A stretch of 64,000 nucleotides of DNA, taken from assembly GCF_008831285.2 (NCBI RefSeq), contig NC_045138.2, positions 5,857,205-5,921,204 of the forward strand, read 5' to 3'. The position numbers and the translations under genes were made by a program. Shown here one piece after another: positions 3,361 through 60,384 of the stretch. The stretch comes from Nymphaea colorata. Its lineage: Eukaryota > Streptophyta > Magnoliopsida > Nymphaeales > Nymphaeaceae. Each line of letters opens with the position of its first letter. Positions within the stretch are counted from its first letter, which is position 1. The notes below the pieces were generated by a model. It was not told the DNA's origin and searched no databases. It saw only the letters and a list, made by a program, of their open reading frames with translations.

Positions 3361-4253
3361 CTCTTGTTCTTCCTCTCTCTATTTAAGTTTAAGACTTTAT
3401 CTTCAAAAGCTTATACAAATATGTATACATACATATAGAGAATATATATCTCCTCATATTTCAAAATCTTCTATCTAGTGATATTTGAAATCTCTTTTTC
3501 TTTTTCTCGTTATTTTTATGAGAGTATTTCACCTCATCTGTCCTTTTTAATATTTTCCTTTGATGACTTTTTATATCTACCGACTTCACTAAAATCAAAA
3601 CTCATATATATGATATTTACAAAAATAAAATCTTAGATGTATATTATGGTAGGAATGCTTTAGATGAATGTTGTGGTATGAATGTTTCATTCTCTTTTAA
3701 TCATATAGGAAAGATCAATGCATTCATGCATTCACATTCACTTAATATCACAAATAAGCACAATCACATTTCTAAAAGAACTGAAGCAAGATGAGATGAA
3801 ACTCTAACTAGATGGTAACCGAATTAGAGCAAAATCTCAATCCTGCTTAATGTCTTAAGAAAACACTAAAGTGATTTCAAAATAATTTTTCAAACTTTCC
3901 AAATGATATTCATAAGGATTTTTCGTTTCTATTTTTCCCTAAAATATTTCACATTCTCAAGCAACTCTTCAAGAACTTTTTTAAAAGTTTGAAACATCAA
4001 ACTTTTAACGTTTTTTTATACCGCATATAGAATCAAAAAGATGTTTAAGTTAAAATGAAATGCATCAATATTAAACATAGCCCTTGGGTTGATTACCCTT
4101 GATAAAGGCATCGGGAACAGTCGATCCTCGTACCAACGGACGAGTCTTTTTTTTTTTTCATTTCAAAACAAAAACTCATTTTTCTTGAGCACTCTAAAAC
4201 CAACAAAAAATTTTACTCATTCATTTTCTTCGTCTCTCTCGCTTATTTTTTCA

Positions 4254-12840: not shown

Positions 12841-12862
12841 TCGAGCTGAGAAACCAGAGAAG

Positions 12863-15018
12863 ATGAAAACAGTAATTGTTGTACTTGCAGAAGCAGCTAT
12901 TTCTAGTCTATTGGGGGCTGTAACTAGTTTGATGAAAAACAAGGTGGACCTCATCCTAAATGCTGAAGACAAACTCGAGCAGCTTCAGGGGAAGCTGGAA
13001 TGCTTGCAGAAGGCCCTCAAAGATGCAGATCGGAAGCCCTTTTACAGCAACGAGCGCAACAGAGGTCTGGAGGGAGACGTGAAGGACGTTGTTTATGATG
13101 CACAGGATATTGTTGAGGAATATCGAAGTAAAATTGAGGTCAGCAAGAAGGATAAGGGTTCTACTTCAACAAACAAGGTATGCAAGCGGCCTTGAACCGC
13201 TCTGTTCTGTTCCATTCCATTAATGAACATGTTTCTTTTCCCTATGAACTTGGTAACGAAATAAAAAAAATCAATGAATGGCTTGATGAAATAAAAAAGA
13301 ATTGGGACATGGATCTGCTCAAACCAAAACCAAAAGAAAATAGCCAGGGCCCTATTGGTGGTGAAAATGACAACCCTCCAGAGACAACCCATCACATAGG
13401 TGCACAACCACCCATAGGAAGAGAGAATGATAAAAGGGTGATAGTAGAAAAACTGTAGTCAAATGGCTCAGGATAGAGTAGAATGACAGAGAAGCATGAT
13501 GTTTCTATTATTTCTATTGTAGGAGAAGGCGGGATCGGCAAGACTACTCTTGCAAAAATGGTCTTTAGTGAAGTCAAACAACAGTTCGGAGAATGCAGGT
13601 GGTGGGTTTGCATTTCTGAGAGGCCAAACCGTAAGGATCTATTGAGGAAAATACTCAAGGAAGTGTGCAAGGGATCTACAGCAGGTCTTGATTGTATCAC
13701 TTCTTTGAGTGACTTGTGCACACAAATACAGAGTGAGCTATGGAAGAATAGATTTTTTCTGGTCTTAGATGATGTATGGGAAATAGATTGGTGGCAGGGA
13801 GAGGCAGAGAGCACTCTTATGAGAGGTGCAATGGGGAGCAAAATTTTGATCACTAGTCGCAATATAGATGTCTCCAAAGGTGTCAAAGCTTTATATAGGC
13901 ATAGATTGGCAATATTGCCAGAAGATGAGAGTTGGAATTTATTTTTTAACAAGGCATTGAGGACTGAAAATGATTTGGTGAGCCACAATTTGCAAGATAT
14001 TGCAAAAAAGATAGTCAAGAAGTGCGGTCGGTTGCCACTTGTGGTCCAAACTATTGGGTCCTTAGTGAAACAAAAAGCATGGAAAAAGCAGAGTGGAAGG
14101 TGGTTGCGGATAGTGTGATCTGGGAATGGAAGATGCCTGCCTTATCCTCTTCCTCTCAATATGGTCCCATTCTTCCTGGTCTTGTACTGAGCTACCATGA
14201 CTTGCCACCTTATTTGACCAGTTGTTTCGTCTATTGCAGCATTTTTCCAAAGGATCATGAGATTGAAAACGAGGGATTGATCATGCAATGGGTGGCACAT
14301 GGATTGATTGAAGAAAAGGAAGCCGTAGGTGTGGAAGTGGCAGCAAATCAGTACATTGAAGATTTGATAAGGCGTTGCTTGATTGAAACACATGATAGAT
14401 TTTTTGAGGGCACTTTTCTCAAATTGCATGATGTTTTGCATGATCTTGCCTCATATATAGGTGGAAAGGAATATAGGCATGCCTCTTTTTCTGAGCAAAC
14501 ACGCCATCTGTCATTACTTGCTATAGACGATGCAGAAGCGGCCATGCAATGCCTCAGAAGCAGCAAATAAGGTGCGGACATTATTGAGTGCATCCTTGTC
14601 TTCGGTGGAATTCACTAATTTCAAGTGGTTGAGGGTGTTGTCATTGATGCAATGTCTAATGGATGAGCTACCGAACTCCATTGAATGCTTTTCACTTCTA
14701 AAATATCTCGATCTAAGCTGGTCTCATGTGAGACGATTGCCCAGGTCAATTGGCAAACTCTATAACTTGCAAACATTGGATTTAAGTTATAGTAAAATTG
14801 AAGAGTTGCAAGAGGAAATGGGTGAACTGTGCAACTTGAGGTATCTTGGGCTGGAAGGAACAAAGTGTTTGAAATCTATAGCCAAAGGCTTGGGTAAGCT
14901 TACCAATTTACAGACATTGCACAGGTTTTTGGTATGCGATGATAGAGGGGACATAAGAGGATGCAATATTAGGGAACTAAAAGACTTGAACAAACTGAAA
15001 GGAAAATTGTTAATAAGG
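12863..15018 (+). pseudogene. NLR1: broken CC-NB-ARC-LRR resistance-type gene
   Basis: Resembles the intact NLR3. It starts at 12863 (ATGAAAACAG) with an Rx-type coiled coil carrying the EDVID-like stretch DVKDVVYDAQDIVEEY. The NB-ARC domain has the P-loop GEGGIGKTTLAK, kinase-2 FFLVLDDVWE, KILITSR, a GRLPLV variant of the GLPL motif, and LKLHDVLHDLA in the MHD position. Six to seven leucine-rich repeats follow. The gene is disabled by a frame change near 13185, stop codons at 13456-13458 and 13474-13476, a one-base deletion near 14075 and a five-base deletion near 14550. The LRR is cut off at about 15018, after NKLKGKLLI, where the ERCC1/hAT block begins. Such proteins normally act in the cytosol as intracellular pathogen sensors; this copy cannot. 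Confidence 0.93.
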
Positions 15019-15734
15019 ATAGCGTCAGCTACCAAAGCACAATGTTTTTTTTTTTATTTCTACTTGCTAATTTTTTAGTTTCTAATTGTTTAATTTCTAC
15101 TTGCACAGGTTGGCAAATGGCAAGATCCACGTTTGCAGATAAATAAATCTGGAAAATTCACCAACCCCGACAATTAAGAAAGAAACATTAGATGCGAAGT
15201 GCGCTCGTGCAGGGTTAAGACAATAGAATGTGAATGATATTAAAATGAAGACGAAAAAATTCCTAAATCAAGTCCTAACTAGCGAACACGGTGCCAAACA
15301 TATTTTGTCCGTGGTCTTACGTGATCATCACTCTTGTAACCGTTAATATTCTATTTGAAGCTTTCGTTTTAAATTAATTTCCATTACGTAGGGACAAAAA
15401 AAAACAAAGTTCATGCAATGAACCACATTGTTATGTGTGCTATACCCGTGAGTAGTTCAGCGTGCCTTTTTTTAACCAACCTAGTCATACGTGTCATGCT
15501 GGTTATGACAAAAATACCCTTAGTTCACACAAAAAAAAAAATCACACAAAAAAAAAAAACTTAAGTGAAGACAAAAATGAAAATCGAAAAAAAGTAAAAA
15601 GACTGGGATATTTAAAAAAAAAGACCAAAATCATCAATAATGTAAAATCACTACAACAAAGAACATTCTGGTGATGCTTACAATGGGCTCGTAGAATAAT
15701 AATTTAGTAATTGAGAATGGTAACCAGAACATAC

Positions 15735-15803
15735 CTGTCGCTTGCCTATCCCTGGACATCGAGCTAGGTCTTCCATCGAGGCATCCATGATACCAGAGAG
15801 AGA
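15735..15803 (-). pseudogene. ERCC1-like exon (MDASMEDLARCPGIG), copy 1
   Basis: Minus-strand translation gives SLSGIMDASMEDLARCPGIG followed by KRQ, in 23 codons. ERCC1 proteins, partners of the XPF nuclease in nucleotide excision repair, carry this segment at the start of their C-terminal helix-hairpin-helix domain (family knowledge). A splice donor GTATGT follows at 15729-15734. The expected acceptor AG in front of the exon has become AA (CTTGCAA), so normal splicing is lost. In codons it follows directly on from the exon at 16251-16307 (phase 0 junction). Confidence 0.82.
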
Positions 15804-16250
15804 TTGCAAGAACCACAAGCTTGGTGAAGAATCACAGCATGACCAACTAACTGGGGGAACAGCAAGATGTTCACCATCATTTTCCAAAATAAGTAGCTTA
15901 TAGTTTTGCTGATGATAATGAGGATAAAGGAAGGCAGGCTCTTGATATTTGCATAGTTAATTGCAGACTCTCTCCCTGACATTCATAAGGAAGGTCATAC
16001 AGAATGAAATTTTCACAACAAGCTGCTACTTGTGGAAAAACAAGGTGGTTTTTGGCATAAAAAAAATTGCATGGATTTATGAAATAACTACTATACCTAG
16101 TTTAGACCATATGCTTTCAACTCTATAACTAGCTTCCATAAATCACTTTACCTGCACATTAGCGCCCTTACGCTGGCTAGCAAGATATGCAACATTGAGA
16201 TAAAAGAGCATAACCAAATGCAGAACCTGCTTCTTGTCAATAGCACTTAC

Positions 16251-16307
16251 CCCAAAAGCGGAGCCAAGGGTGACAACATCACTCTTATTGATATGACGAA
16301 TGCTCAT
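16251..16307 (-). pseudogene. ERCC1-like exon (IRHINKSDVVTLG), copy 1
   Basis: Nineteen codons read MSIRHINKSDVVTLGSAFG between an acceptor TTGTTAG and a perfect donor GTAAGT (16245-16250). ERCC1 has the equivalent segment just before the MDASMEDLARCPGIG exon. Copy 2 (57509-57580) has five more codons at the start (NHALT), which are missing here. Confidence 0.8.
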
Positions 16308-17539
16308 CTAACAAAAGAAGATGGAATTTATAGATCATTGCATCCTGACCTCAGCGCACCAGCTATTTAGCAAAGTCCTTGTTGTTAAGGACATAACAAA
16401 GTAAAAGGGAGATGCAAACAATACCACTTAGAAACTTGAAATCATGTGATTTTGGAAATATAAAACATCGGACCATACTTAGAGGAAAACAGAAAGCCAT
16501 AATGTAGAAACATAAAAATGAATAACAAACACTGCTCCAAGCATATGGACTTTTCTGTTGCAACACTACATCAATAACGTAAAATCACTACAACGAAGAA
16601 CATTCAGGCGATGCTTACAACCACACAAAATCAACAATCCATGAAATTCAAAGGTGGAATTCGCAAAAGAGGATTGGCAATCCATTTTTACACTTTACCC
16701 ATGCCTTCATTAGTAAGGTACACTGGTGGGATACACTTTTGCAAAAATGAGCTCTGTTGAGGGTTCCTTGAAAGCTACCACAAGAGTTTGAATAGAGACC
16801 AGATAACAAGCCAGTACAACCAAATCAGAAGCCTCAATGCACAAATACATTAAATAATAGATTCACATGACCACAAACAAATGTAAATAGCAGGAAAAGC
16901 TCTTTTAAGATGTTTTTTTGACGTTTCAGCACAAACCAACACCCATTCGATACAAGGCCAAAACATTTATCCTTCCTCAAGTCAACTTTATGTCAGTTAC
17001 TTGAATCAATCATCCGACGATTATGAGTAATAAATCCAAGAAAACACTCTTGTGAATCTCCTTTTGAGTCTTTAACAATAGAACCTAAGAAAAACATTAA
17101 AATGTTAGCATAAAAAAGAAGTCATTATTGACTATGTTCGAAAGAGATTCAACTGATATTGTTGTCATCAAGGTAAAATCAAACATCTAAGAACAAAACA
17201 ACTACTAAACTTAAAACAGTACCTGATATTTTGTTATTTGTTACTGCATAATATGTTTGAATTGATGTTCAATCATGTCATATTATCTCATCTTCAGTAG
17301 TGTCCTACAAGAAAACTCACAATAATTGATCAATAAACAACTACTATAACATATAAGCACAAATAAACATGATAAACTTTTATATACATACATTTTAGTA
17401 CTTACCTTTAGCAAATACAGCTACAAGATTCATTGGGTCACCATATTATCTTATCTGATTACCTGCACAAGCTAATTCTTCCACTGTCTTGAACTCAATG
17501 AACTCTTACATTCATCCACAATTCAACCTCTATTACTAA

Positions 17540-17711
17540 AAGTGGCTTCATATGCAATTGTAGTAATATGAATATGCAACATATCTCGTGTCATATGTGA
17601 TAAAATAGGGTATTTCAATTCTTTATCTTTTCTCCAAATCAATATATCAAATGAATAATGAGTGCTAGTATCTCATTTGAGTAACCCATCTTCTAAATAC
17701 ATATCAAGCTC
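17540..17711 (-). pseudogene. hAT transposase C-terminal (dimerisation) remnant, copy 1
   Basis: On the minus strand the frame reads FDILIW-RKDKELKYPILSHMTRD and then MLHIHITTIAYEATFS. This matches the C-terminal dimerisation region of hAT transposases (YP-LS-MARD and the SESAFS motif, here YEATFS). The remnant is cut off at the block edge (17711). The fuller copy is at 58785-59850. Confidence 0.8.
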
Positions 17712-18480
17712 CCATCTAGAGCATCATATCTTCTCATACAATTTGATGGTCAACTCTATTTGGGACTCACTTGGATTTATATCCGGACTTTCCACCCAAG
17801 TCCAAGTCCGATATAAACTTATTACATAATTCATATCTAAATTCAGATATAGATCCAGTCCAAGAACTCATATAGAGACCCATAACGAAAGCCCTAGATC
17901 AATATCTAGATCCAAATCCTGGCCATAGATCCAGACAAATCCCTAGATAAGGTTTCATATTCAAATTCTAGCTTTAGTATCCAAGAAAAGCCTTAGATCC
18001 AAAATAGAGCCCAGATCCAAATCAAACTCAGATCCCAAATAGAATTTCAGATCTGAATCAAGATCCAAATCCAACTTCAAACCCACTCCAGTTATGAGCC
18101 TTGGCTGCAATTTAGAGCCGATCTGGATCTAAGATCCAAAATCTATATCCATATTCTTGTCCAGATTCAAATCCTCGGTCTGGGTCCAAATGTAGATCCA
18201 ACTTTATATTTTTTACTCAATCCGGTTGCAAATATGAGATTGACATCCAAATCTGAAATTCCAGATCCGAATGTGAAAATTCAAATCCAAAACTGAGATT
18301 CTAGGTAAATTCAGAGATTTTGATCCAGATCTAGTCCAGATCTGAACTTTAGAAGCATCTATAGACCCATATCCATTGCTTTTATCCATTTCCAACTCAA
18401 AAATTCCAATGTTGACTTGGCTTACTATTTGGATGTAGTTCATATCCAAATCCAAGTCACAGACCCTTTTCAGGCCCAAG
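17712..18480. repeat. Degenerate GATCCAAATC-type repeat tract
   Basis: The strings AGATCCAAATCC, CCAGATC and AATTCAGATC recur many times with irregular spacing and order. It looks like an old minisatellite or the repetitive part of a decayed element. No gene seen. Confidence 0.55.
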
Positions 18481-19170
18481 GATCAAGACATCGTGGTCAT
18501 TCCCAGACAATTAGTTTTCAGTTCAAAATCCTCAAAAATACCTTTAAATGTTCTCAAGATATCATTGAATTTCCCAAATGCACTTGATTTTGTCAAAATA
18601 TATTTTATTTTTCCAAAAAACCTCATTTTTGTGATAAAAATCTGAAAATGCCTTCTTTTTCTCTCCGAACGAGGCCAAGAGCTAACATTGCAGGACCAGC
18701 CAGGCCGAACACTGGCGAGCAAGGTTCTGTAGGGCCTGACCAGGCCTAGTCTGGCCGCCGGCAAGGCCAGCTCCACCCAGCCAAACAGGCTCAGCCAGGC
18801 AATGGCCCCAACTGACTAGTCTAGGCCAACTTCACGCCATGATTAAAATCCTACCCTTTGCAAGTGCTTTGTACATCACAAGCAATATGGTGATTTATGC
18901 CTACTTGATTGGTTAGGTAGGTTTTTGGGCCTGATGTACATTTCTTTGTTCTTTAAGATAATTGACTTGGCCCATCTATTCCAGTTCATTGGCCGATGGG
19001 TGACTGGGAGATTATAATTTTTGCCTCTTCTCTTTTTGTTCGAACTCCAAGTATTTCGTGGCCCCTCCGAACGAGCGGAGGATTCATCCCAATCATCTGG
19101 AGCTTACGTTGATGTTGGTGGTGTCAATTTACGTTGATATTGGTGGTGTCAAGTTAGTGAAAGAGGGAGA
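18481..19170. other. Unassigned intergenic DNA with a GC-rich patch
   Basis: A patch at about 18665-18830 is rich in CCAGGCC and GGCCAG strings and contrasts with the AT-rich flanks. A 26-bp unit (ACGTTGATGTTGGTGGTGTC) occurs twice at 19107-19152. No gene recognised. Confidence 0.5.
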
Positions 19171-19460
19171 ATGAATTAAACATATGATGTTGGTGGTTCC
19201 AATATCGATTTTTCATATTTTAGATTGTACCAAATATTTATAAAGATTATTATGAAACAAAGATTGTAGCAATTTTTATGTTTGAAATTCAAAGTTGTAG
19301 TTGATATATATTTTGCACCCTCAATGGCCATGGTCATTCCTATGCATAATGCAAATTGCTTCATATAACAGCCATGGTGTTAATTGTCGCTGTTAAAAAT
19401 GTTTGATACGCTTAAAAGCCAATAGCAACCAAGGCTATAACCATGGCTAATGGCCTATTT
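19170..19460. repeat. Dispersed repeat shared with 5690-6000
   Basis: Collinear with the earlier copy around ATATTTTAGATTGTACC, TTTTTATGTTTGAA and ATGGTCATTCCTATG. It ends about 450 bp before NLR2. Confidence 0.7.
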
Positions 19461-19907
19461 TGTTGTTGTGCCTTTGAAGAAAGAGGGTTCTCTCTCTAAG
19501 CTTCCGTGGATTCTCTTCACTCATTTATAGATTCATCCCTATCACCTGAAGCGAGGCCCAAAGACTCATCCCTATCACGTATCACCTGGAGCGAGGCCCA
19601 TTCATATCTTTTGTAGAGTCTCTACAGTCATCTTTGTAAATGTAAATGTATACATAATTGAGAAGACTTATAAGCTATACATGACTTGCGCAAATCAAAT
19701 TACTATAATACGAAGTTCTACAATCAATATTGTCTACTTTTTGTGTTCTCGAAGCAATTGATAATCGCTTCATCGCCAACCAAAAATATGACTCATTCAT
19801 TTATCTCTCCCTTCTACATACAAGCAAGTTTCAACAACATTCATTCTTGAAAATGGCCTTTAAGCATTTGATGTTGAACTAGCAAAGTCAACTGCACATC
19901 TATTTGT
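19461..19907. other. Intergenic DNA upstream of NLR2, no coding signal
   Basis: A short phrase (CATCCCTATCACCTG with GCGAGGCCCA) is repeated near 19545 and 19580. No coiled-coil-coding sequence is visible, so NLR2 has lost its 5' end. Confidence 0.55.
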
Positions 19908-22900
19908 ACATCTATTGGTGGTGAAGATGACAACCCCCGAGAAACAACCCATCACATAGGTGCAGAACCACCCATAGGCAGGGAAAATGATAAAGAGGTG
20001 ATACTAGAAAAACTCTTGTCCAATGGCTCCGAACAGAGTAGTATGACAGGCAAGCGTGATGTTTTTATTATCTCTATTGTAGGAGAAGGCGGGATCGGCA
20101 AGACTACTCTTGCAAAAATTGTCTTTAGTGAAGTCAAACAACAGTTCGAGGAACGTAGGTGGTGGGTTTGCGTTTCTGAGAGGCCAAAGGGTAAGGATTT
20201 ATTGCGGAAAATACTGAAGGAAGTGTGCCAGGAATCTAAAGCAGGACTTGATACTTCCTTGAGTGACTTGTGCACCCAAATACAAAGTGAGCTCTTGAAA
20301 GAAAAATTTTTGTTGGTCTTAGATGATGTATGGGAACTAGATTGATGGCAGGGAGAGGTAGAGAGCACTCTTATGAGAGGTGCAATGGGGAGCAAAATTT
20401 TGATCACTAGTCGAAATATAGATGTCTCCAAAGGGATCGGAGCTTTATATATGCATAGATGGCCAATGTTGAGAGAAGATGAGAGTTGGAATTTATTTTT
20501 GAACAAGGCATTGAGGACCGAAATTGATTTGGTGCGCCACAAGTTGCAAGATATTGCAAAAGCAATAGTCAAGAAGTGTGGTGGGTTGCCACTTGTGGTC
20601 CAAACAGTTGGGTCCTTAATGCGAACAAAAAACATGAAAAAAGCAGAGTGGAAGGAGGTTGCGGATAGTGTGATTTGGGAATGGAAGATGCCTGCCTCTT
20701 CCTCTTCCTCTCAATATGGTAGCATTCTTCCTGGTCTCATACTGAGCTACGATGACTTGCCGCCTTATTTGAGGAGTTGTTTTGTTTATTGCAGCATTTT
20801 CCCAAAGAATCATGAGATCAAAAGGGAGGGATTGATCATGCAATGGGTGGCACATGGATTGATTGAGGAAAAGGAAGGCATAGATGTGGAAGTGACAGGA
20901 AACCAATACATTGAAGAATTGATAAGGCGTTGCTTGATTGAAGAAACCGATGTTAGATATTATGAGGGCACATGTCTCAAGTTGCATGATGTTTTGCATG
21001 GGCTTGCCTCATATATAGGTGGAAAGGAATATAGGCATGCGTCTGCTACTGAGCAAACCCGCCATTTGTCATTACATGGTGAAGCGGCCATGCAATATAA
21101 TGCCTCAGTTGCAGCAAACAAGGTGCGGACAATATTGTTGAGTGCATCCTTGTCTTCAGTGGAATTCACCAATTTTAAGTGGTTGAGGGTGTTGTCATTG
21201 AGGGGATGTCAAATGGATGAGCTACCAAACTCCATTGAATGCCTTTCACTTCCAAAATATCTTGATCTAAGTGTGTCTAATGTGAGACGGTTGCCCAGTT
21301 CAATCGGCAAACTCTGTAACTTGCAAACATTGGATTTAAGTGATGCTAAAATTGAAGAGTTGCCCGAGGAAATGGGTGAACTGTGCAACTTGAGGTATCT
21401 TGGGCTGGAAGGAACAGAGTGTTTGAAATTTATTGCAGAAGGCTTGGGGAAGCTTACCAATTTATGGACCTTCCATAAGTTTCTGGTATGCAATGACAAA
21501 GGGGACACAAGGGGATGCAATATTGGGGAACTAAAAGACTTGAACAAACTGAAAGGGAAATTGGTAATAGAAGGTTTGGGTGGGGGAAGGGTGAAAGTTA
21601 TTGATGCAGAGAAAGCACAGCTTAAGAATAAGCTTGAGCTAAATGGTGTGGAATTAAAGTTTCAGGTGGGAGAGGATGACAAAGTGGATAGTGCCTCTGA
21701 ACAGAGGGGTTTGCTGGAGGCTTTAGAACCTCCACATGGCATAGAGAGGTTGAGAATTTGTGATTATGAAGGAGATAGGCCTGCATGGTTTTTGAACACC
21801 AACTATGTGGAGCTGCAGACACTATGCCTGGAACGTTGCCGATCGTGGGCAACAGTGGTAGGAATCAAATCATTAGAAAAATTGGACATCAAAGCCTGCC
21901 CAAAGCTGTATGAATTACGGTGCTTGCCTTTGCTAAAGTCATTGAGTATTTTAAGCTGTGATGGACTCAATACAATTGCTGACATGGCTGCTCTCAAATC
22001 CTTGGAGGTACCTCCATCTAATAGGCTGAAGACTCTTGCTAATATGCCGTACTTGGAGTCGTTGGAAGTGAAAGGTTGTGGCAGCCTAGAGCGAGTAGCT
22101 GAGATGCCCGCACTTAGGTCACTGAGGGTGGTTGGATGTAATATGTTGAAGACTCTTGCTAATATGCCAGCCTTGGAGTCGTCGGATGTGAGAGCATGTG
22201 GCAGCCTAAAGAAAGTAGCTGAGATGCCTGCACTCACATCACTGAAGGTGGTTGGATGTTATATGCTGACGACTGTTGCCAATATATCGGCTTTGGAGTT
22301 GTTGGAAGTGAGAGATTGTGGCAGTCTAGATCAAGTAGCTAAGATGACCGCACTTAGGTCACTGAGGGTGGTCGGATGTAATATGCTGAAGACTCTTGCT
22401 AATATGATAGCCCTAGAGTCATTGGAGGTGAAAGATTGTGGCAGCTAGAGCAGGTAGCTGAGATGCCTGCACTCAGGTCACTGAGGGTGTATGGATGTAA
22501 TATGCTGAAGACTCTTGCTAATATGCCGGCCTTGGAGTCATTGGAAGTGAGAGATTGTGGCAGCTTAGAGCAAGTTGCTGAGATGCCGGAACTCAGATCA
22601 TTGGAGGTGGACAGATGTAAGAGGCTGAAGACTCTTGCTCATGTGCCTGCCTTACGGTCGCTGCATGTGCATCAGTGTGGTAGGCTAGAGCAAGTTGCTG
22701 ATGATCGCATGCCAGACTTGGAGTCATTGAAGGTGAAAGGTTGTGGCAGCCTAGAGCAATTACCTCATGACATACCTGCTCTCAAGTCATTGACAATGCA
22801 CGGATCTGATAGGCTGACTAATATGCTGGCCTTGGAGTCGTTGAATGTGAGAGATTGTGGCAGCGTAGAGCAAGTAGCTGGGGTGCCTGCACTCAGGTCA

Positions 22901-23893
22901 CTGAGGGTGTGTAGATGTAATGGGCTGAAGACTCTAGCTAACATGCCTGCCTTGGAGTCGTTGGAGGTAAGATATTGTCACAGCCTAGAGCAAGTAGGTG
23001 AGATGCCTGCTCTCAAGTCATTGAAGGTGGACAGATGTGATGGGCTGAAGGCTCTGGCCAACATGCCTGCCTTGGAGTCGCCGGACGTGAGAGATTGTAA
23101 CAGCCTAGAGCAAGTAGCAGATTATCACATGCCAGCTTTAAAAAGATTGAGGTTGTCTGACCTAAACACTCTGAAGCAGCTCCCTACTCGCCTTCCTTCA
23201 CTTGAGGAACTGATAATGGAGAATTTGGCCAACTGGGAGGGGTGGGCAGCAGCTGCAACAGGGGAAACAATATTTACTTCTATGCCATGCTTAAGAGAGG
23301 CGTATTTTTACAAATGTCCAAAGATGCAGACACAAGGCATGATTGATGAGTTGGCACGGCTCCAAACTCTGAGAGTGACGAAATGCCCAAGTGCAAGATT
23401 GGGATGGAAATTGCTTAAAAACATGCCTAACCTCATTTACTTGGAACTAGATGGACCAGCTTTGGAATCAACACTGCCATCACCATTGTCATTGCAGGTA
23501 TCAACATTTCTACCCTCCCTCGAGTCTCTCACATTGAAGGATAACAACACTGAAGATCTCAAATGGGGAAAGGTGCCTGAGTCGGTGTGGGGTCTCTCCC
23601 AACTAAAGGAATTGAGACTCGAAAGCTTCACTGAGGACATCAGCTTGGGAGGCCGCTGGCAATGCCTTCCAAAACTGAAAGACCTTCGGCTTTCTGACTT
23701 CCCCAATCTCAAGTCTCTTGTGGACGTCAATAATATTACTCCCCAACAAAATGAACCAACATGTCCCACAGATGCACAGGAACAGATCGCCTGCCTCTCA
23801 AAGCTTGATTGCATACATATTTCCACATGCCCCGCACTTGATCTGCTGCAGGTTAGAAAGAAGATGACTAGTGTTGCTATAAGATGTCACTGA
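19908..23893 (+). pseudogene. NLR2: NB-ARC-LRR gene lacking its coiled coil
   Basis: Homology to NLR1/NLR3 begins at about 19908 (IGGEDDNPRETTHHI), in the linker between coiled coil and NB-ARC, so the first ~160 residues are missing. The NB-ARC has GEGGIGKTTLAK, WWVCVSE, LLVLDDVWELD, KILITSR, CGGLPLV, and LHDVLHGLA in the MHD position. A TGG-to-TGA change stops the frame at 20343-20345, right after kinase-2; the same frame then stays open to 22448. A missing C near 22445 shifts the frame inside the LRR array, and the downstream frame runs to 23893. The LRR is unusually long, with about 21 repeats of 20 residues (21924-23188). The C-terminus also differs from NLR3, ending DLLQVRKKMTSVAIRCH after a small deletion. 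Confidence 0.93.
21924..23188 (+). repeat. Coding 60/120-bp LRR tandem array of NLR2
   Basis: About 21 LRR units of 20 residues alternate between an MPALESLEVRDCGSLEQVAE-like and an MPALRSLRV-GCNMLKTLAN-like form, so the DNA repeats with a 120-bp period (for example AATATGCC at about 22040, 22160, 22400 and 22519). The one-base deletion near 22445 lies within it. Confidence 0.9.
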
Positions 23894-26990: not shown

Positions 26991-27955
26991 TTCACAAAAG
27001 GTCTAAATCTAGCCATAGGACTGTTGGGTTGAATGTTAATTTTAAGGATGTGCACAAGGCAATCAGTTGGAGTAGCCTGCTCCAACTTGTCAATTAGCAT
27101 CAATGCTTGAAATTTGCCCTTGATTTAATTTTTTTTTCTGGCAAGTCACATTGATAGCTGGATGCGGGAGAAGGTGACTAGGAGCTAATTGTCACACAAT
27201 CAAGTAGAAGGAACATAACAAACCTCAGTATTAGCTACTAGCATCCAAGATTTCTCCACCATCGTTATAGTAGAATAAAGATACTAGGAAAGATATTTTT
27301 TTTATGGTATGACAAGTGGATGATTGAGCTTCAAGAAAATGAATTGCAATCAAGCCAAAACAATGAAGAACAATTTTTAACACAAATGGAAGAGGGGGGT
27401 GGGAAGATCTCAAAGAGGTACAAGCCCTTCCCCTTCCCCCTTCCCTCTGCCTCCAAGGTCTTGGATTGCTTCGGGATCTGAGTAAACTTATAATATTACT
27501 CCTTTCAACTTGAAAAGTAGTGTACGCCACCACTTTGCAGTCCAGAAAAGCAGTGTCAATGAAAATCCAATTGAAGACCAGACTTTCGCACATATTATAC
27601 ATTGTGTAGAGTAGTAGAAAGAAGACACAACAACAACTCACAACATTAATAAAACGGGAAATAATTAGTCAGAGAAATTCGATCCTACACATTCAAGATG
27701 GTAATATGTTACCTAAAATGGTAAACCTCACTATGTACAAATGGAGAATATTGAACCGAATAGACCCATTATTATGCAATAAGAATCTCACAAGGTTGAG
27801 CTAAAATGATGTCAATTTCCCCTTGGTCTCCTTTATTTCCTTACATGCTAAGCGTCTTTACAAATTCTTAGGTTCTTATGGCCATTAATGTCTGTGAGGG
27901 GTGATCAATCACTTTAAGAATATGGGCTTTTAAACTGAGTGAAGTGAGTCTTTGT
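26991..27955 (-). repeat. Composite repeat, part E
   Basis: About 0.95 kb reading on the minus strand like 40735-41600, 46430-47020 and 54925-55510. Shared phrases include GGTCTATTCGGTTC, CTTCTTGAAGC-CAATC and CTTGGATG-TAGTAGCTAG. No conserved open frame is shared by the copies, so I treat it as repeat. Confidence 0.8.
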
Positions 27956-28330
27956 TCATTTTTTATTAATGGGAGAGAGAGAAAGCTCTTTGGTAGTAAG
28001 AAGCGATTGTGTCAAGGGGTTCTCAACTGCTTTTCATTGCATGTAGTATTTGAGATGTTCTCAAGACGTCTTAGAAGAGAAGTTCAGAGAAAGAACTTGC
28101 TTCTCCAAGTATATCTTCTGCTGGTGGCATGATAACTGTTAATAGCTGAGCCAAGATCTGTTTTTCTACTAAAAATTTGTGAAGAGCTTGCAGGCAATGT
28201 AGGGCTATGTATTAATAATCAGAAGTCATCCTTTATTGTCTTCCATGTTCAAAGCAAAGTATGTACAAAAATTGCTGGCTTTTTGGGATGGGGCAAAAAT
28301 TCTTGACCATCCCAAGTGCAAGATCGGTAT
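27956..28330. other. Intergenic DNA, no gene seen
   Basis: A phrase around AGTAAGAAGCGATTGTG and AACTGCTTTTCATTG resembles 5270-5310. Nothing else is recognised. Confidence 0.5.
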
Positions 28331-40610: not shown

Positions 40611-40734
40611 CTCGGTTCAATTTAAGAAGATAAAGTAGGCTTCCTATAATTGCTTAAGGAATGAGGGACTGTAGGCGAAAATTTTATTACAAAACACGTG
40701 ACAGAATAGGCGTCACCATTTTAAATAAAAATTG

Positions 40735-41600
40735 CACAAAAATTCACTTCACTTAGTATAAAAGCCCATATTCTTGAACTGATTGATCACCCCTCACAGG
40801 CGTTAATGGCCATAAGAACCTAAGAATTTGTAAAGGCACTGTTGGAGTTTGTTCACACATAAGGGGGTGAAGGAGACCAAGGGAAAATTGACATCATTTT
40901 TGCGCAACCTTGTCAGATTCTTATTGCATAATAATGGGTCTATTCGGTTCAACATTCTCCATTTGTACATAGTGAATGTATAGGACCTAATTTCTCTGAC
41001 CAATTATTTTCAGTTTTTGTTAATGTTCAGAGTTGTTGTTGTGGCCTCTTTCTACTACTATACACATTGGGAAATATGTGTGAAAGTCCAGCCTTCAATT
41101 TGATTTTCATGATGCTACTTCTCGGGACAGCAAAGTGATGGCATACACTACATTTTAAGTTCAAAGGAGTAACAGAAGACCTTTGAGGTAGAGGGAAGGG
41201 TGAAAGGCTTCTATTTAAGTTAAAAGTTGTTGTTCATTGCTTTGGCAAGATTGCAATTCATCTTCTTGAAGCTCAATCACCCACTTGTCATACCATCAAA
41301 AATATTTTTTCCAGTGTCTTCATTCTTCTATAATGACGGTGTGGAAATCTTGGATGTTAGTAGCTAGTCCTGATATTTGTTATGTTTTGCGTGCAATTAG
41401 CTCTTAGTCACCTTCTCGTGCTTCTGGCTCTCAAGGTAACCTGCCAAAAAATAAATTAAATCATGGGCCAATTTCAAGTTCTGCTAATTGACAAGTTGGA
41501 GCAGGTTACTCCAAGTGATGTCTGCCATGTGCACAAACTTAAAATTAACCTTCAACCTAAGAGTCCTATGGCTAAGTTTAAATCTTTTGTGGATTATCTC
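40735..41600 (+). repeat. Composite repeat, part E
   Basis: Plus-strand copy of the element seen reversed at 26991-27955. It runs straight into a purine/pyrimidine tract at TTGTGGATTATCTCCC, as the other copies do. Confidence 0.8.
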
Positions 41601-46430: not shown

Positions 46431-47020
46431 AAATCTGTCTTGCATTGTGAATATGAGTGTAAGTCCGGCCTACAATTTGATTTTCATTGACGCTACTTAT
46501 CTGGACTACAAAGTGGTGGCATACATTACTTTTAGAGTTGAATGAAGTAATATTATAAGCAGCCCAACACCTTGGACGCAAAGGGAAGGGGGAAGGCTTC
46601 TACCTCTTTAAGGTATCCCACCCCAGTCTTCTATCTTTGTTAAAAGTTGTTGTTCATTGCTTTGGCCTGATTACAATTCATCTTCTTGAAGCACAATCAT
46701 CCACTTGCCGTACCATAAATAATGTTTTCCTCAGTCTCTTTATTCTTCTATAGTGATGGTGAAGAGACCTTGGATGCTAGTAGCTAGTCGTGAGATTTGT
46801 TATGTTTCCTTCTTCATGATTTGTGTATAAGTTAGCTCCTAGTCATAGTCACCTTCTCTGGCTTTTAGCTCTCAAGGTAACTTGCCAATAATGGACAATT
46901 GCAAGCATTAATTTTAATTGACCACCTAAGCAGGCTACTCCAACTGATGTCTGCCTTGTGTACAACCTTAAAAGTAACCTTCAACTTAAGAGTTCTATGG
47001 CTACGTTTAAATCTTTTGTG
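46430..47020 (+). repeat. Composite repeat, part E (shortened)
   Basis: Matches the second half of 40735-41600 (AAAGTTGTTGTTCATTGC, CTTGGATGCTAGTAGCTAG) and continues into the next CT-rich tract. Confidence 0.8.
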
Positions 47021-50004: not shown

Positions 50005-53000
50005 CTATAATGCTAATCTCCTTCCAAGACGGTCTCTTAACTCCTGCGGTAGATCGAGTGCAGGGCAACTGTAAATACCTAAGTGTTCAAGCTTCAAGAG
50101 GCAGGTAATCTGTTGCTTTGCATCAGTAGGACATGTTGTTTCATTTTGTTGGAAAGTAATATTATTGACGTCCATCAGAGACTTGAGATTGGGGAAGTCA
50201 TAAAGCCGTAGTTCTTTCAGTTTCGGGAGGCATAACCAGTGGCCTCCCAAGCTAATGTCATCAGTGAAACGGCGTAGGCACAATTCCTCCAGTTGGGAGA
50301 GAGCCCACACCCAGTCAGGCACCTTTCCCCATTTGAGATCTCCAGTTTTGTTGTCCTTCAAGGTCAGAGACTTGAGGGAGGGTAGAAATGTTGATACCTC
50401 CAATGGCAATGGCGATGGCAGTGTTGATTCCAAAGCTGCTCTATCTAGTTCCAAGTAAATGAGGTTAGGCATGTGATTAAGCAATTTCCATCCCAATCTT
50501 GCACTTGGGCAATTCGTCACTCTCAGAGTTTGGAGCCCTTTCAACTCATCAATCATGCCTTGTGTCTGCATTTGTGGACATTTGTAAAAATACGCCTCTC
50601 TTAGGCATGACATAGAAGTAAATGTTGTTTCCCCTGTTCCAGCTGCTGGCCACCCCTCCCAGTTGGCCAATCTATCCATTGTCAGTATCTTAAGTGAAGG
50701 AAGGCGAGTAGGGACCTGCTTCAGAGCATTACAAGCTCTCACAGCCAGCGACTCCAAGGCAGGCATGCTAGCGAGAGCCTTCAGCCCATTACATCCGTAC
50801 ACACTCAATGACCTGAGTGCAGGCATCTCAACTACTTGCTCTATGCTGCCACATTCAGACACGTTCAAGGACTCCAAGGCCGGCATATTAGCAAGAGTCT
50901 TCAGCTTACATTCGTACACCCTTAGTGACCTCAGTGCAGACATCTCAGCTGCTTGCTCTAGGCTGCCACATTCATCCACCTGCAAAGACTCCAAGGTCGG
51001 CATATTAGCAAGAGTCTGCAGCATATTACATCTGCCCACCTCCAATGACCTCAGTGCAGGCATCTCAGCAACTTGCTCTAGGCTGTCACAATCTCTCGCC
51101 ACCAATGACTCCAAGGCCGGAATATTAGCAAGAGTCTTCAGCATATTGCATCTGTACATCCACAGTGACATGAGTGCAGGCATCTCAGCTACTTGCTCGA
51201 GGCTGCCACAATAGTTTAGCTTCAACGACTCCAAGGCCGGCATATTAGCAAGACTTTTCAGCATATTACATCCGTCCACCCACAAGTTCTTCAGCAGAGG
51301 CATGCTTGGCAATTCACACAATGTTGGGCAGGCGCTGACCTCCAATTGTTCCAATGATTTAATTCCTATCACTGTTGCCAACAATGGGCAACGTCGCAGC
51401 TGTAGTGTCCGCAGCTCCACATAGTTGGTGGTGTCCAAAAACCACGCAGGCCTATCTCCTTCATAATCACAAATTCTCAACCTCTCTATGCCATGTGGAG
51501 GTTCCAAAGCATCCAGCAAACTCCTCTGTTCAGAAGCACTATCCACTTTGTCTTCCTCTCCCACCTTGAAGTTTAATTCTACACCATTTAGCTCATGCTT
51601 CTCATTAAGTTGTGCTTTCTCTGCGTCAATTACTTTCACCCTTCCCCCACCCAAACCTTCTATTAACAATTCCCCTTTCAGTTTGTTCAAGTTTTCTAGT
51701 TCCCTAATATTGCATCCTCTTGTGTCCCCTTTGTCATCGCATACAAGAAACTTATGCAGGGTCCGTAAATTGGTAAGCTTCCCCAAGCCTTCAGCTATAA
51801 ATTCCAAACACCTTGTTCCTTTCAGCCCAAGATACCTCAAGTTGCACAGTTCGCCCATTTCCTTGGGCAACTCTTTAATTTCACTATAACTTAAATCTAG
51901 TGTTTGCAAGTTCCATAGTCTACCGATTGAACTGGGCAACCGTTCCACATTAGAAGAGCATAGATCAAGATATTTTAGAAGTGAAAGACATTCGAAAGAG
52001 TTCGGTAGCTTATCCATCTGACATCCCATCAATGACAACACCCTCAACCACTTGAAATTTGTGAATTCAACCGAAGACAAGTATTTACTCAACAATGTCC
52101 GCACCTTGTGTGCTGCTGCTGAGGCCTTATATTGCATGGCCACTTTTGCATCGTCTGCACCAAGTAATGACAGATGGCGGGTGTGCTCAGAAGCAGAGGC
52201 ATGGCTATATTCCTTTCCACCTATATACGAGGCAAGGTCATGCAAAATGTCATGCAATTTGATTTCCTTATATTCAGTTTCTTCAAACAAACACCGATTT
52301 ATCAAATCATCAATATATTTATTTGCTGTCTCTTCCACATCAGTGCCTTTCTTTTGGTCAATCAATCCATGTGCCACCCATTGCTTGACCAAACTCCCCT
52401 TTTCAATTTCATAATCCTTTGGATAAATGCAGCAATACACAAAACAACTCTTCAAATCATGTGGCAAGTCATCATAGCTCAGCATGAGACCAGGAAGAAT
52501 GCTACCATATATTTCAGAAGATGGTGATGAGGCAGGCATCTTCCATTCCCATATCTCACTCTTCTCAACGCTTTCCCAGACAGCTTTCGTCATCCTTTTT
52601 GTACGCATTAAGGACCCTACTGTTTGGACTACAAGCGGCAACCCACCACACTTGGCCACTATCCTCTCCCCAATACCTTTCAAATTGTAACTCACCAACT
52701 CATTTTCATCTTTCCATGCCACATCCAGAAACAAGCTCCAACTTTCCTCGAAAGTCATTTCTGGTAATTTATGCATTTTAGCACCAATCCATTGGGAGAC
52801 TTCAACCTTTCTACTAGTGATCAAAATCTTGCTCTCCTTTGCACCTCCCATCAGGGTGTCCTCTACCTCTCCCCTCCACCAACCTAATTCCCACACATCA
52901 TCTAAGACCAACAAAAACTTGCTCTTCGAGAGCTCACTTTGTAATTGTGTACACAAGGCAGTCAAAGCGGTACCCTCAAGTTCTCTTTCCGATCTCTGGC

Positions 53001-53805: not shown

Positions 53806-54364
53806 TTTCCCTGGTTTCTCAGGTAAATGGAGCAAGAGGAAGAGAAACAATTTTCAAGTGGTGGGAAGAAAGGCAAATAGCTAAAAGAGAAACACCATGC
53901 TGGCACAATTACTCTTGACAACTACCTCCACCATGCAACAGCTCTCTTCTTCGTTTAATTTATGCTACATGTCAGCAAGTGGGTTTAATGTAATAATATA
54001 TCCAGCCCCTGGTATCCACGTTCTTTCATTAGTTTCAGAGGCGGCTCTTTCTCCCATACAGACTAGCTACATTCAAATTGCTGCTTCTTTTTCCTCCAAT
54101 TCTAGATGTTTATGCCATTCACCTTAATTTTCCCATTTGCAATAGTGTGACCTGTTTTTTTTCTTCAATCCGGTGAAACATGCTTATAATATTGGAGCAC
54201 ATAGCAAAAATATTCAATTATACATATTTTTATTAAGTAGAGCTAAAGAAGAAATTAAATTAGTTATATTTAGTTGCTGCTGAATAAATCTAGTGGAATT
54301 GGAAAGATCCCTAAGCCAAGGCTTCTACATCTCTTAAGAGTTCCCGTTATCAGATTGGCCAGAT

Positions 54365-54438
<74 letters not shown>

Positions 54439-54439
54439 A

Positions 54440-54489
<50 letters not shown>

Positions 54490-55510: not shown

Positions 55511-55556
55511 CATCACATGTTAGGGCCAGTGGGAAGTGGGTGTAGCCCTTTTTCGC

Positions 55557-55730: not shown

Positions 55731-55733
55731 CCC

Positions 55734-55807: not shown

Positions 55808-57009
55808 TCTCTGCTTCCATTTGTTTTCTTCCACACAATCTTTGTAAATCGGTGGAAACTTAAGGAAAGCAATCGTTTGGCAACGCACGCATCCTCTCTC
55901 TCTCTCAAGGGCAGGGCCAGGACTCAATCTTTACCTTCGCATAATATGTTCCTATTTCTTTACGTTCTATTTGCTGATTTTATAAAAAGAATAAACCCAT
56001 CAGCCTGCCATCAGTTAATTTCAGCTAAAGGATGGCAAGATCGATGAAGGGTGCTAAATAAATCCGGAAAAGTCCCTCAACCCCAATCTTTTACGTTTAG
56101 TCACCTAGAGATTTGCCCTTGCTGTTCAAGTTTGTCGGATTCCTTTTTCAAGACTATTTGTTTATCTGATTGAATCATGTAAAAAGTTTGGATGCATGCA
56201 TGAACCTTCGGGAAGCGTATTTATTCAGGCGAGAGTTGATAATTATATTTTGGAAGGACGTTCTTAGTGTCAGCCACCAAAGCACAATGTTTTTTTTTAT
56301 TTATTTCTACTTGCTGATTTTTAATTTCTCGTTGTTTAATTTTGACCGTGTTTGTCTCTACAGTTTGGCAAGATCCACGATTGCAGATAAATAAATCCGG
56401 AAAAATCACCAACCCCAATCTTTCACGTCACCTACAACTTGTATGTCCCGACAATTAAGAAAGGAACATTAGAGGCGAAGTGCGCTTAAGCAGGGTTAAG
56501 CTAATAGAATGTGAAAGATATTAAAATGAAGACGAAAAGAATTCTTTAATCAAGTCCTAACTAGCGAACACCGTGCCAAACATATGTTGCCCGTAGTGGC
56601 ACGTGATCGTCACTTTTATAACCGATAATATTCTATTCGAAGCTTTCGTTTTAAATTAATTTCCTTTAAGTAGGAACAAAAAAGCAAGGTTCATGCAACG
56701 AACCACATTGTTATATGTGCTATACCCGTGAGTAGTTGAGCGTGTCTTTTTAGCGAACCTGGTCATATGTGCCAGCAAGATGGTTATTATGATGAAAATA
56801 CCCCCAGTTCATACAAGGAAAAATTACACAGAAAAAGAAAACTTATGTTTTTGAAAATCGAAAAAAGTAAAAAAACCAGAAAGGATATTTAAAAAAAAAA
56901 TACCAAAATCATCAATAACGTAAAAGCACTTCAACAAAGAACATTCCGGTGATGCTTACAGTGGGCTCGTAGAATAATAATTTAGTAATTGAGAATGGTA
57001 ACCACAACG

Positions 57010-57062
57010 TCGAGCTAGGTCTTCCATTGAGGCATCCATGATAGTATGATACCAGAGAGAGA
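57010..57062 (-). pseudogene. ERCC1-like exon (MDASMEDLAR), copy 2
   Basis: Here the acceptor CTGCAG is intact (57063-57068), but the exon has a 6-bp insertion before MDASMEDLAR and has lost its end (CPGIG and the donor are deleted). Copy 1 has the opposite pattern of damage: good end and donor, lost acceptor. Confidence 0.78.
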
Positions 57063-57508: not shown

Positions 57509-57580
57509 CCCAAAAGCTGAGCTAAGGGTGACAACATCATTCTTATTGATATGACGAATGCTTGTCAACGCATGATTCAT
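57509..57580 (-). pseudogene. ERCC1-like exon (NHALTSIRHINK), copy 2
   Basis: Twenty-four codons read MNHALTSIRHINKNDVVTL and then SSAFG between an acceptor TTGTTAG and a perfect donor GTAAGT (57503-57508). Known plant ERCC1 proteins have HALTS, a short variable stretch, then DVVTLGS-FGSL at this place (family knowledge). It is one exon of the XPF-partner protein; the remaining exons were not found in the window. Confidence 0.82.
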
Positions 57581-58784
57581 CTAACAAAAGAAGATGGAAT
57601 TTTATAGATCAATGCATCCTGACCTCAGCACACCAGCTATTTAGCAAAGTTCTTGTTGCTGAGGACATAACAGAGTAAAACGGGGAATGCAAACAATATC
57701 ACTTAGAAACTTGAAGTCATGTGATTTTGGAAATATAAAACATCGGACCATATTTAGAGAAAAACCGAAAAGTCATAAAATTAGAAACATCAAATGAATA
57801 ACAAATACTGCTCCAAGCATACAGATTTTTCCGTTGCAACACTACATCAATAATGTAAAATCACTATAGCAAAGAGCATTCTTGTGGTGCTTACAATCAC
57901 ACAATATCAACAATCCATGAAACTCAAAGGTGGAATTCTCAAAAGAGATTGGCAATCCATTTTTATACTTCACCCATACTTTCATTAGTAAGGTACACTG
58001 GTGGGATACACTTTTGCAAAACTGAGCTCTGTAGAGAGTTCCTTGAAAGCTACCACAAGAGTTTGAATAGAGACCAGATAACAAGCCAGCACAACCAAAT
58101 CAGAAGACTCAACACACAAACACATTAAATAATAGACTCACATGACCACAAATAAAGCTATAATAGAAGGAAAAACTCTTTTAAGATGTTTTTCTGACGT
58201 TTCCGCACAAACCAGCACCCATTCGGTACAAGGCCAAAACATTTATCCTTCCTTAAGTCAAATTCTACTTTATATGTCAGTTACTTGAATCAATCATCCA
58301 ACGATCCTGAGTAAAAAATCCAAAAAAAACACTCTTGTGAATCAACTTTTGAGTCTTTAACAATAGAACCTAACAAAAACTAAAAATGTTAGCATAAAAA
58401 AAAATATTGACTATGTGCAAAAGAGATTAAGCTGATAATGTTGTCATCAAGGTAAAATCAAACATCTAAAAACAAAATGTAAGAACAAAACAACTACCAA
58501 ACTTAGAACATGACTTGGTCTGCATAATATGTTTGGATTGTTGTTCAATCATGTCATGCTATCTCATATTCAACAGTGTCCTACAAGAAAACCAACAATA
58601 ATTGATTAATAAACAACTACTATAACATATAAGCACAAATGAACATGATAAACTTTGGTATACATACATTACTAATACATACATTACTAACCTTTAGCAA
58701 TATCTTATCCAATTACCTACACAAACTAATTCTTTAAATATCTTGGACTCAATGAATTCCTACATTCATCTACAATTCAACCTC

Positions 58785-59850
58785 TAGTACTAAAAGCAGA
58801 TTCAGAGACAACTGTAGTAATATGAATATACAATATATCTCGTGTCATATGTAATAAAATGAGGTATTTCAATTCTTTATCTTTTCACCAAATCAATATA
58901 TCAAATGAATCATGAGTAATAGCATCAAATTTGAGCAATCCATCTTCTAAATACATATCAAGTTGAGACATGGGAGCTTGGAAAGGAATATTCTCTGTTT
59001 TATTTAAAGAGCTAAAAAATCTTACACTATATCTATTGGAATTGTTACATGATGAGTGAGTCTCTCTCATATAAAAGTAGTAGCATCACATTCAATATCT
59101 TTTTTTAGACCTTCAATTTTTGCAACTTAGCTGTTATAGAGCTCTTGCAATGTATCTCTTACTAATGTTATTTGATGTTACTTTTTTTGTATTTGACTAA
59201 AAGTCTTTAAAAAGACAAAGTATGTTCAACTTAACTTTATCATTGGATCTAGTATGGAAGAAATAACAATTAATATATTGTATACTTATCAAACTTTTCT
59301 TTTATTTTAGATGTCATTCTCTTTATAAAGCTGCATCCATTCACAACTTCTTGTAATAGTTATTGAACACTCAAAATTTCTAAGAAAAATAGGTTTGTTG
59401 TAGGATACTTGGACCTGAAAAAAACACAGAAACATTATAAAATGCTTTAAGAAAAGTACATATTTTTTTGTATTCTTTCTCATTCATCTGCATCCATCAA
59501 CCAAGTAAAACTAGCATCTTTCATATTATATCTATCAAAAACATGCTTGTACATAAGTGCATCCTGAAACATCAAATGAGTAGAATTCCATCAAGTTGCA
59601 ATATCTAGCACCAGCTTCTTTTGACCACGACTTTCAAATTCATTTACTATAAGTTGAAAGTTATAAAGTCTTGATGAAAAACATTTTATATGTTTGATTG
59701 TATCTCTGATCTTTTCAAGTTCATCTCTAATAGCTGACAAACTATATTGCACCATCATATTTACAATATGTGCACAACAATAGACATGATAAAATTTACC
59801 GCCTTGGTATAGATGTACACCACTTTTCTCTAAAAATTCTTTCAAAGTTT
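58785..59850 (-). pseudogene. hAT-family transposase remnant
   Basis: In minus-strand order: CAHIVNMMVQYSLSAI and IRDTIKHIKCFSSRL (59845-59650); LDIAT-WNSTHLMFQDALMYK (about 59610-59530); YPTTNLFFLEIL; IKEKFDKYTIY; LDPMIKLS; SQLDMYLEDGLLKFD; FDILIW; and YLILLHMTRDILYIHITTVV with SESAFST (58885-58785). This is the usual order of a plant hAT transposase from the mid-domain to the C-terminal dimerisation region. Several in-frame stops and frame changes kill it, and the N-terminal BED zinc finger was not seen. It abuts the LRR fragment of NLR4, so it probably inserted into an NLR gene. Confidence 0.88.
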
Positions 59851-59984
59851 TTATAGGAAACTTCCATTACAGTGGTAATGAATTTATAAGGGAAATCTCC
59901 ATTACACAAATTTTCGACATCTCCATTAGACCAATTTTTCCAATACTTTACTTAAGCGATATGTTGGTATTGGACAGTAATCCA

Positions 59985-60384
59985 AAATTGCCCAAATGCA
60001 TGATTGGGATGAAAATCGCTTCAGCACCTTCCTAACCTCATTAAGTTAGGATTGGATGGCAGCTTTGGAATCAATAGTACTGCCATCAGAGGTATCGACA
60101 TTTCTACCCTCCCTCGAGAATCTAACTTTGAAGGACAACAATGCTAGAGATCTCAAATGGGGAAAGGTGCCCCGGTGTGGTGTCTCCCCCAACTAGAGGC
60201 TTTGGACCTACACTGTTTCACCAAGGACATCAGCTTGGTAGGCCATTGGCAATGCCTTCCGAAACTGAAAAACCTTTGGCTTTCTGACTTCCCCAATCTC
60301 AAGTCTCTTGTGGATGTCAATGATATTACTCCCCAACAGAATGAAACAACATGTCCTACTGATGCAAAGCAACACATTGCCTAA
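59985..60384 (+). pseudogene. NLR4: C-terminal LRR fragment
   Basis: Starts near a degenerate copy of the NLR2 KCPSARLGWKLL region. It continues through STFLPSLENLTLKDNNARD-like sequence to DISLVGHWQCLPKLKNLWL, DFPNLKSLVDVNDITPQQNE and TTCPTDAKQHIA, where it stops (60382-60384), about 30 codons earlier than NLR3. Frame breaks are present before 60157. The 3' flank (AAATTGTCTGAAATATGTGT) is shared with NLR2 and NLR3. All upstream domains are missing; a hAT remnant lies directly upstream. Confidence 0.9.

Follow-up and report, generated by a model that had tools for sequence, protein, structure and literature searches.

The question raised by this locus is how two exons resembling those of the DNA-repair gene ERCC1 came to lie near the end of a hAT transposase, twice, among resistance genes. 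The window, a 64-kb stretch of Nymphaea colorata DNA (C1:5857205-5921204), contains clustered NLR genes and gene fragments, the NLR type of which is judged from translations. The original prediction, made from the letters of the window, was that two collinear blocks each carry a piece of ERCC1 that had been captured by, or fused to, a hAT element before duplication, and that the two copies decayed independently.

Two Copies of a Five-Part Patchwork

Comparison of the window with itself under sensitive scoring pairs block A (15020-17708) with block B (56265-58962) in one self-match, a single collinear pair with indels at 83.4% identity, bearing out the predicted collinearity. With another scoring the identity is 85.1% over 15166-17708, and homology between the blocks ends at 17708 in A. 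A search of the 407.8-Mb, 783-contig host assembly with the block as query, in which 40 of 214 candidates were scored, gave 50 match rows, comprising A and B themselves, one ERCC1 locus (L009, C9:22506500-22516000), three ROP pieces and 44 matches to the hAT part. Block A splits into consecutive pieces that each match different genomic loci, in the order NLR spacer, ROP (52 bp), ERCC1 (0.87 kb in A), ROP (0.5 kb) and hAT; the 52-bp repeat belongs to the same intron as the longer piece X, and the order is therefore ROP, ERCC1, ROP. The ERCC1, ROP and hAT pieces all run in one sense, on the minus strand of the window (Table 1). A count of genome copies, proposed as a check on the original prediction, yields a lower bound: the chimera is present at least twice, as A and B, which lie 41 kb apart in this NLR cluster, with none further among the matches scored (best 40 of 214).

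Table 1. Features of blocks A and B and of their flanks (positions in the window).
Feature	Position	Strand	Match or state
NLR-A, resistance-gene copy truncated at start of block A	12846..15015	+	77% to NLR 51661-53822 and to C1:6603250-6605413
Block A piece Y, NLR upstream spacer	15020..15631	.	15045-15631 73% to C1:6601034-6601605, match stops 15631
Block A R1, 52-bp ROP-intron piece, first copy	15632..15683	-	92% to 16569-16620; 96% to L011 3872-3924
Block A ERCC1 segment (intron-exon-intron-exon-intron)	15678..16543	-	L009 4343-5301 = C9:22510842-22511800, 80% with gaps, 91% of aligned bases
Pseudo-exon II, copy A	15803..15735	-	full 69 nt, acceptor AG changed to AA
Pseudo-exon I, copy A	16307..16251	-	15 nt of 5′ side lost
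Block A piece X, ROP/RAC small-GTPase intron	16543..17040	-	L010 3632-3673 (95%) and 3735-4174 (89%); L011 3864-4255 (90%)
Block A hAT fragment, truncated at both ends	17041..17708	-	84-86% to L012-L015
Block B piece Y and left continuation, NLR upstream spacer	55936..56909	.	69% to C1:6601034-6601864, stops 56909
Block B R1, first ROP-intron repeat	56910..56960	-	repeat comparison, match to ROP loci
Block B ERCC1 segment	56956..57827	-	L009 4343-5309, 79% with gaps, 92% of aligned bases
Pseudo-exon II, copy B	57010..57062	-	acceptor kept, 8-bp insertion, 3′ end and donor lost
Pseudo-exon I, copy B	57580..57509	-	full 72 nt, both splice sites kept
Block B piece X, ROP intron	57819..58323	-	L010 3632-3673 (90%) and 3739-4173 (88%)
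Block B longer hAT fragment with Dimer_Tnp_hAT	58324..59896 (~)	-	80-83% to L012, L013, L014 over 1.5-1.6 kb; PF05699 E 5.1e-16
NLR 3′-end fragment beside B hAT fragment	59986..60382	+	homologous to 23381-23792 and 50103-50514

An Unspliced Internal Piece of ERCC1

The host ERCC1 gene in L009 encodes a Rad10 domain (E 2.5e-46 for the joined exons), and an ERCC1 protein query matches this locus at 7172-7014, 6467-6357, 6178-6104, 5510-5382, 4991-4920, 4462-4391 and 3271-2999, with a weak match at 7833-7807 (E 1.7). Two adjacent ERCC1-like exons with intron sequence and splice signals had been predicted in each block, and this description holds: exons I and II, on the minus strand in both copies, recur in L009 as exons of 72 nt and 69 nt in phase 0 with intact splice sites. 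The segment is unspliced and internal to the gene, corresponding to 0.96 kb in the parent, of which 0.87 kb is left in A, and the two copies cover both exons, the intervening intron and parts of the outer introns. The exons that adjoin these two in L009, where matches to them were found, are missing from A and B, and an ERCC1 query found no more ERCC1 exons in the 64-kb window.

Other helix-hairpin-helix proteins are a poorer match. A 43-aa spliced peptide pieced together from both copies finds five ERCC-1 chains in the PDB (E 2e-8 to 1.8e-7), ahead of UvrC as the next protein at 0.052, and Pfam returns generic HHH families only for this peptide. With two exons only, an acceptor or exon end lost, and indels, the ERCC1 pieces are not a working gene copy. 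The damage differs as originally described, exon II having its acceptor changed to AA in A and its 3′ end removed in B, in keeping with separate decay of the copies. An integrated NLR-ERCC1 domain was considered and rejected because the ERCC1 pieces oppose NLR-A and have no intact frame. A literature search comparing the 72-nt exon with human exon VIII found no paper with "72 bp" among those listed. The listed titles and abstract openings on ERCC1 together with hAT or gene fragments, transduplication or the host held no matching report, and such reports may exist in print.

ROP Intron on Both Sides of the ERCC1 Segment

Piece X matches the intron immediately upstream of the exon at 3559 of L010 (C9:24.39 Mb), a minus-strand gene for a ROP/RAC small GTPase. 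A ROP protein query run against L010 and L011 matches L010 at 8457-8359, 7793-7698, 7295-7032 and 3559-3158; the first two exons give the Ras family at E 2.6e-16, and the last ROP frame has a sub-threshold, unrelated Pfam match only. In the genome search, the match of A 16543-17040 to C9:24390636-24391173 is split into 37 bp at 100% and a remainder at 89%, and A 16561-16957 matches C12:2715363-2715754 at 90%. The latter lies in L011 (C12:2711500-2720000), which is a damaged 3′ fragment of a ROP gene that retains 3′ exons only and is itself another scattered gene piece.

The 52-bp repeat is ROP intron as found in L011, with L010 diverging over part of it. Its second copy lies inside piece X (A 16569-16620, B 57845-57895), and the ERCC1 segment is consequently flanked by the 52-bp ROP piece on both sides, in A and in B. 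About 0.5 kb of ROP intron separates ERCC1 from hAT, so these two do not adjoin.

The 52-bp repeat also holds CACTACAACAAAG, which resembles a CACTA end. CACTACAA occurs at 15649 and 16586, within the ROP-linked direct repeat, and a third, unrelated occurrence lies at 24016; no TTGTAGTG, as would be needed for inverted CACTA...TAGTG ends, is found anywhere in the 64-kb window. A CACTA reading was rejected because the CACTACAACAAAG repeat is direct, has no inverted partner and matches ROP-linked DNA.

A hAT Element Cut Internally

The predicted hAT transposase C-terminus, on the same strand as the ERCC1 exons, is confirmed by the Dimer_Tnp_hAT domain in B. Only about 670 bp of hAT DNA is left in A, and Pfam found no family in one A hAT frame. 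All four of the fetched genomic hAT copies (L012-L015) read past the join by about 120 bp or more, and some pairs of these copies stay alike for 445-740 bp beyond the point where the block leaves hAT. Not one of the 44 other hAT rows extends left of query base 2016 (window 17038) among the best 40 of 214 candidates. The continuation of genomic hAT copies past the join indicates that the element is cut there, and that the ERCC1 segment lies outside any hAT end seen.

Setting within the NLR Cluster

The spacer matches to C1:6.60 Mb stop at 15631 in A and 56909 in B, one base before R1. At C1:6.60 Mb this spacer precedes a further NLR gene, whose open frame has 1,290 codons, and past the end of the match nothing in the 20 kb retrieved from that site matches window 56910-59985. 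This locus is an NLR spacer without the patch and shows the left edge of the patch; the right edge was not found in either copy or at the related site. In B the spacer is still upstream of an NLR, and hAT sequence ends at about 59896, with NLR 3′ sequence beginning at 59986. In A the spacer is joined to the interior of a truncated NLR (15015/15020), and A therefore looks like a secondary copy.

Further rearrangement is visible around the blocks. NLR 19912-23893 starts at a point homologous to 13352, and 1.66 kb of NLR sequence is repeated (88%) on either side of block A, which appears to be an unequal-exchange-like arrangement. The right flank of A (17730-19448) is 83-85% identical to C1:6594595-6596220, about 5 kb from the patch-free spacer locus and in the opposite orientation. 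The left flank of B contains a MITE-like repeat of about 175 bp (55557-55731) with ends CAGGGGCGGAG...CTCCGCCACTG, which we take to be hAT-like by type; it is present at no fewer than 37 other genomic places at 88-98% (40 of 1324 candidates scored). Elsewhere in the cluster, parts of the spacer repeat at 54881-55501 recur at 27436-27977, 40729-41161, 41434-41488 and 46442-46592.

Joins and Divergence

The same joins are present in A and B, which supports the earlier claim that the fusion predates the duplication. Seven bases (TTACAAT) at the R1-ERCC1 join are common to the ROP and ERCC1 loci, 1-2 bp are shared at the ERCC1-ROP join and a few bp at the ROP-hAT join, and the spacer-R1 join has no clear shared bases.

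Kimura two-parameter (K2P) distances for the ERCC1 piece are 0.074 between A and B, 0.092 between A and the parent and 0.083 between B and the parent. For the ROP piece, the A-B distance is 0.099 and the distances to L010 are 0.125 and 0.144; for hAT, A and B differ by 0.150, A differs from L012-L014 by 0.150-0.161 (L013 0.1495) and B by 0.161-0.193; for the spacer, the A-B distance is 0.170 and those to the C1 locus are 0.231 and 0.201. The A-B divergence of the ERCC1 piece is near each copy-parent value, suggesting that duplication came soon after the patch, and the two seem, from these distances, to have been close in time. Since the hAT distance between A and B equals that between A and L013, the hAT part taken by itself gives no grouping of A with B, and it is the join they have in common that unites them. 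A and B differ about twice as much at the spacer and hAT ends (0.150-0.170) as in the ERCC1 centre (0.074), a rise for which gene conversion over the centre or differing mutation rates are candidate explanations.

Scans for Transposon Ends

Terminal inverted repeats (TIRs) with target site duplications (TSDs) were scanned for in hAT-, MULE-, PIF- and CACTA-type classes, with five mononucleotide shuffles per class and at most six pairs displayed for each. Weak TIRs with an exact 8-bp TSD of hAT type number six in A (shuffles 2, 0, 4, 2, 1) and seven in B (4, 7, 6, 8, 4). Pairs of 9-bp MULE type number two in A (shuffles 0-2) and three in B (2-5), those of PIF type seven (4-7) and ten (5-11), and those of 3-bp CACTA type seven (3-8) and ten (9-16); 2-bp CACTA-type pairs, at nine in A (3-8) and 18 in B (10-17), are in slight excess in both. 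The enclosing TIRs suggested as a check on hAT capture did not emerge: no hAT end pair is convincing among all six in A and the six of seven displayed for B, and none convincingly encloses the ERCC1 piece in either block. For the 8-bp target site, also suggested as a check, the exact repeats are those of the pairs just counted, and the ends of the element have been lost. One pair in A, at 14922/18684, has CAG/TAG ends. A simple Helitron scan (hairpin and CTRR-T) was empty for B (53800-62000) and found one site for A (13000-20000), on the minus strand near 16362, which is within the ERCC1 segment and an unexpected place for an end; on average 0.05 Helitron-like sites turned up in mononucleotide-shuffled B sequence. 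The scans found no convincing element ends, which falls short of proof of absence.

Origin of the Blocks

We consider it probable that the blocks are a patchwork filler scar from template-switching repair in the NLR cluster, later duplicated and decayed, rather than a gene-carrying transposon. The spacer ahead of an NLR gene would have been broken, and repair synthesis would have copied 52 bp of ROP intron before switching to the ERCC1 gene, where about 0.96 kb, introns included, would have been copied. Synthesis would then have resumed in the ROP intron, starting a little behind the point where it had left off, and run for about 0.5 kb, so that the 52 bp came to be present twice, and the new strand would have been joined to the interior of a hAT element. 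The completed patch would then have been duplicated within the NLR cluster, with both copies decaying. The five pieces, the order and joins in which they stand, their related source loci and the two differently damaged copies are observed; from these footprints we infer that a break took place, that templates were switched during its repair and that it all happened in one event. The joins have 0-7 bp of homology and consecutive pieces come from separate genomic sources, as expected of template-switch filler, and the use of several templates, the short join homology and the return to the same intron with re-copying would fit such a footprint. Several points count against this explanation. The one-sense layout of the ERCC1, ROP and hAT pieces is also obtainable by transposable element capture, and a single duplication predicts more even A-B distances, barring unequal mutation rates or homogenisation of the centre. 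The hAT part does not pair A with B by distance, transposon ends may have been lost in that the right end of the patch was not found in A or B, and the TIR/TSD scan gave slight excesses over shuffles (hAT-type in A, 2-bp CACTA-type in A and B).

It is unlikely that the patch was built stepwise, with a ROP intron fragment present first, an ERCC1 filler inserted with duplication of its flank, and the hAT join made later. The direct ROP-intron repeat around ERCC1 is what a filled staggered break would give, and a damaged ROP 3′ fragment does exist elsewhere (L011); however, NLR spacer rather than ROP lies left of R1, and an extra deletion is thus needed. This account overlaps with template-switching repair, from which it differs in the number of events, and the likelihoods given to the readings therefore do not sum to one. 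Break-and-ligate joining, in which free DNA fragments are end-joined and no templates are switched, is rather unlikely: it would suit the short or absent join homology, but a pair of ROP fragments, or a break with a long stagger, must then be supposed for the doubled 52-bp ROP piece, which re-copying explains at once.

Transposon readings fare less well. A Helitron bearing pieces of several genes, its ends decayed or removed by later rearrangement of the NLR cluster, would account for unspliced pieces of two genes and of a transposable element in one orientation with short join homology. We regard this as improbable, with the single scan hit inside the ERCC1 segment, no further genomic copies with shared ends (best 40 of 214 candidates) and a left edge that joins NLR spacer straight to ROP intron. 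Capture of the ERCC1 exons between the ends of a hAT element that then duplicated, the alternative raised by the original prediction, is highly improbable. In its favour, roughly 1.2 kb separates ERCC1 exon I from the hAT C-terminus in B, with both on the same strand, Pack-TYPE elements are known to include hAT forms (PMC8903248), and hAT-type pairs in A are slightly above shuffles (6 vs. 0-4), one being the CAG/TAG pair. That pair, however, has 4/10 mismatches and a left end within NLR-A sequence collinear with other NLRs, and the pairs in B are at shuffle level (7 vs. 4-8). The ROP intron intervenes, the join falls inside the hAT element, and among the best 40 of 214 candidates 0/44 other hAT rows bear an ERCC1 or ROP part and no repeated copies share ends at unrelated sites.

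Relation to Known Systems

Abortive gap repair occurs in Ac/Ds-type hAT elements, and the internally cut hAT joined to filler is similar, although neither hAT end is kept here. The locus could be a frozen intermediate of gene capture, with the break made by hAT excision beside an NLR gene and followed by gap repair that aborted inside the element and wandered through ROP, ERCC1 and ROP before sealing; we think this very unlikely, and if true it would let gene capture through abortive gap repair be read base by base.

The probable repair patch also has precedents. Double-strand-break repair by SDSA leaves gene-fragment filler in plant genomes including wheat (PMC3445842), and as there a gene-bearing fragment would have been copied from elsewhere into a non-collinear site; in contrast, here two genes and a hAT piece are strung together, the ROP template is used twice and the break is a deduction. 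The maize p2/p1 chimeric gene contains complex filler of 50 bp from nearby sites (PMC2686159), likewise assembled from at least two templates at the join of a rearrangement among clustered duplicate genes, whereas here the ERCC1 and ROP pieces total about 1.4 kb and have their matches on a different contig (C9). Pack-TYPE transposons, including Pack-CACTA and Pack-hAT (PMC8903248), the capture mechanisms of which are reviewed in PMC13317346, also place host gene fragments beside a DNA transposon. Unlike such elements, the blocks have no convincing TIR or TSD, a hAT cut at the join and no further copies among the matches scored (best 40 of 214).

The feature reads as an ordinary though well-resolved repair scar of a known kind, and general views are left unchanged by it. 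Adjacency in raw sequence can mimic transposon capture, and tracing of the pieces genome-wide points here to a repair patch. What the locus offers is multi-template filler resolved to its joins in an NLR cluster, and such events seed new sequence near resistance genes.
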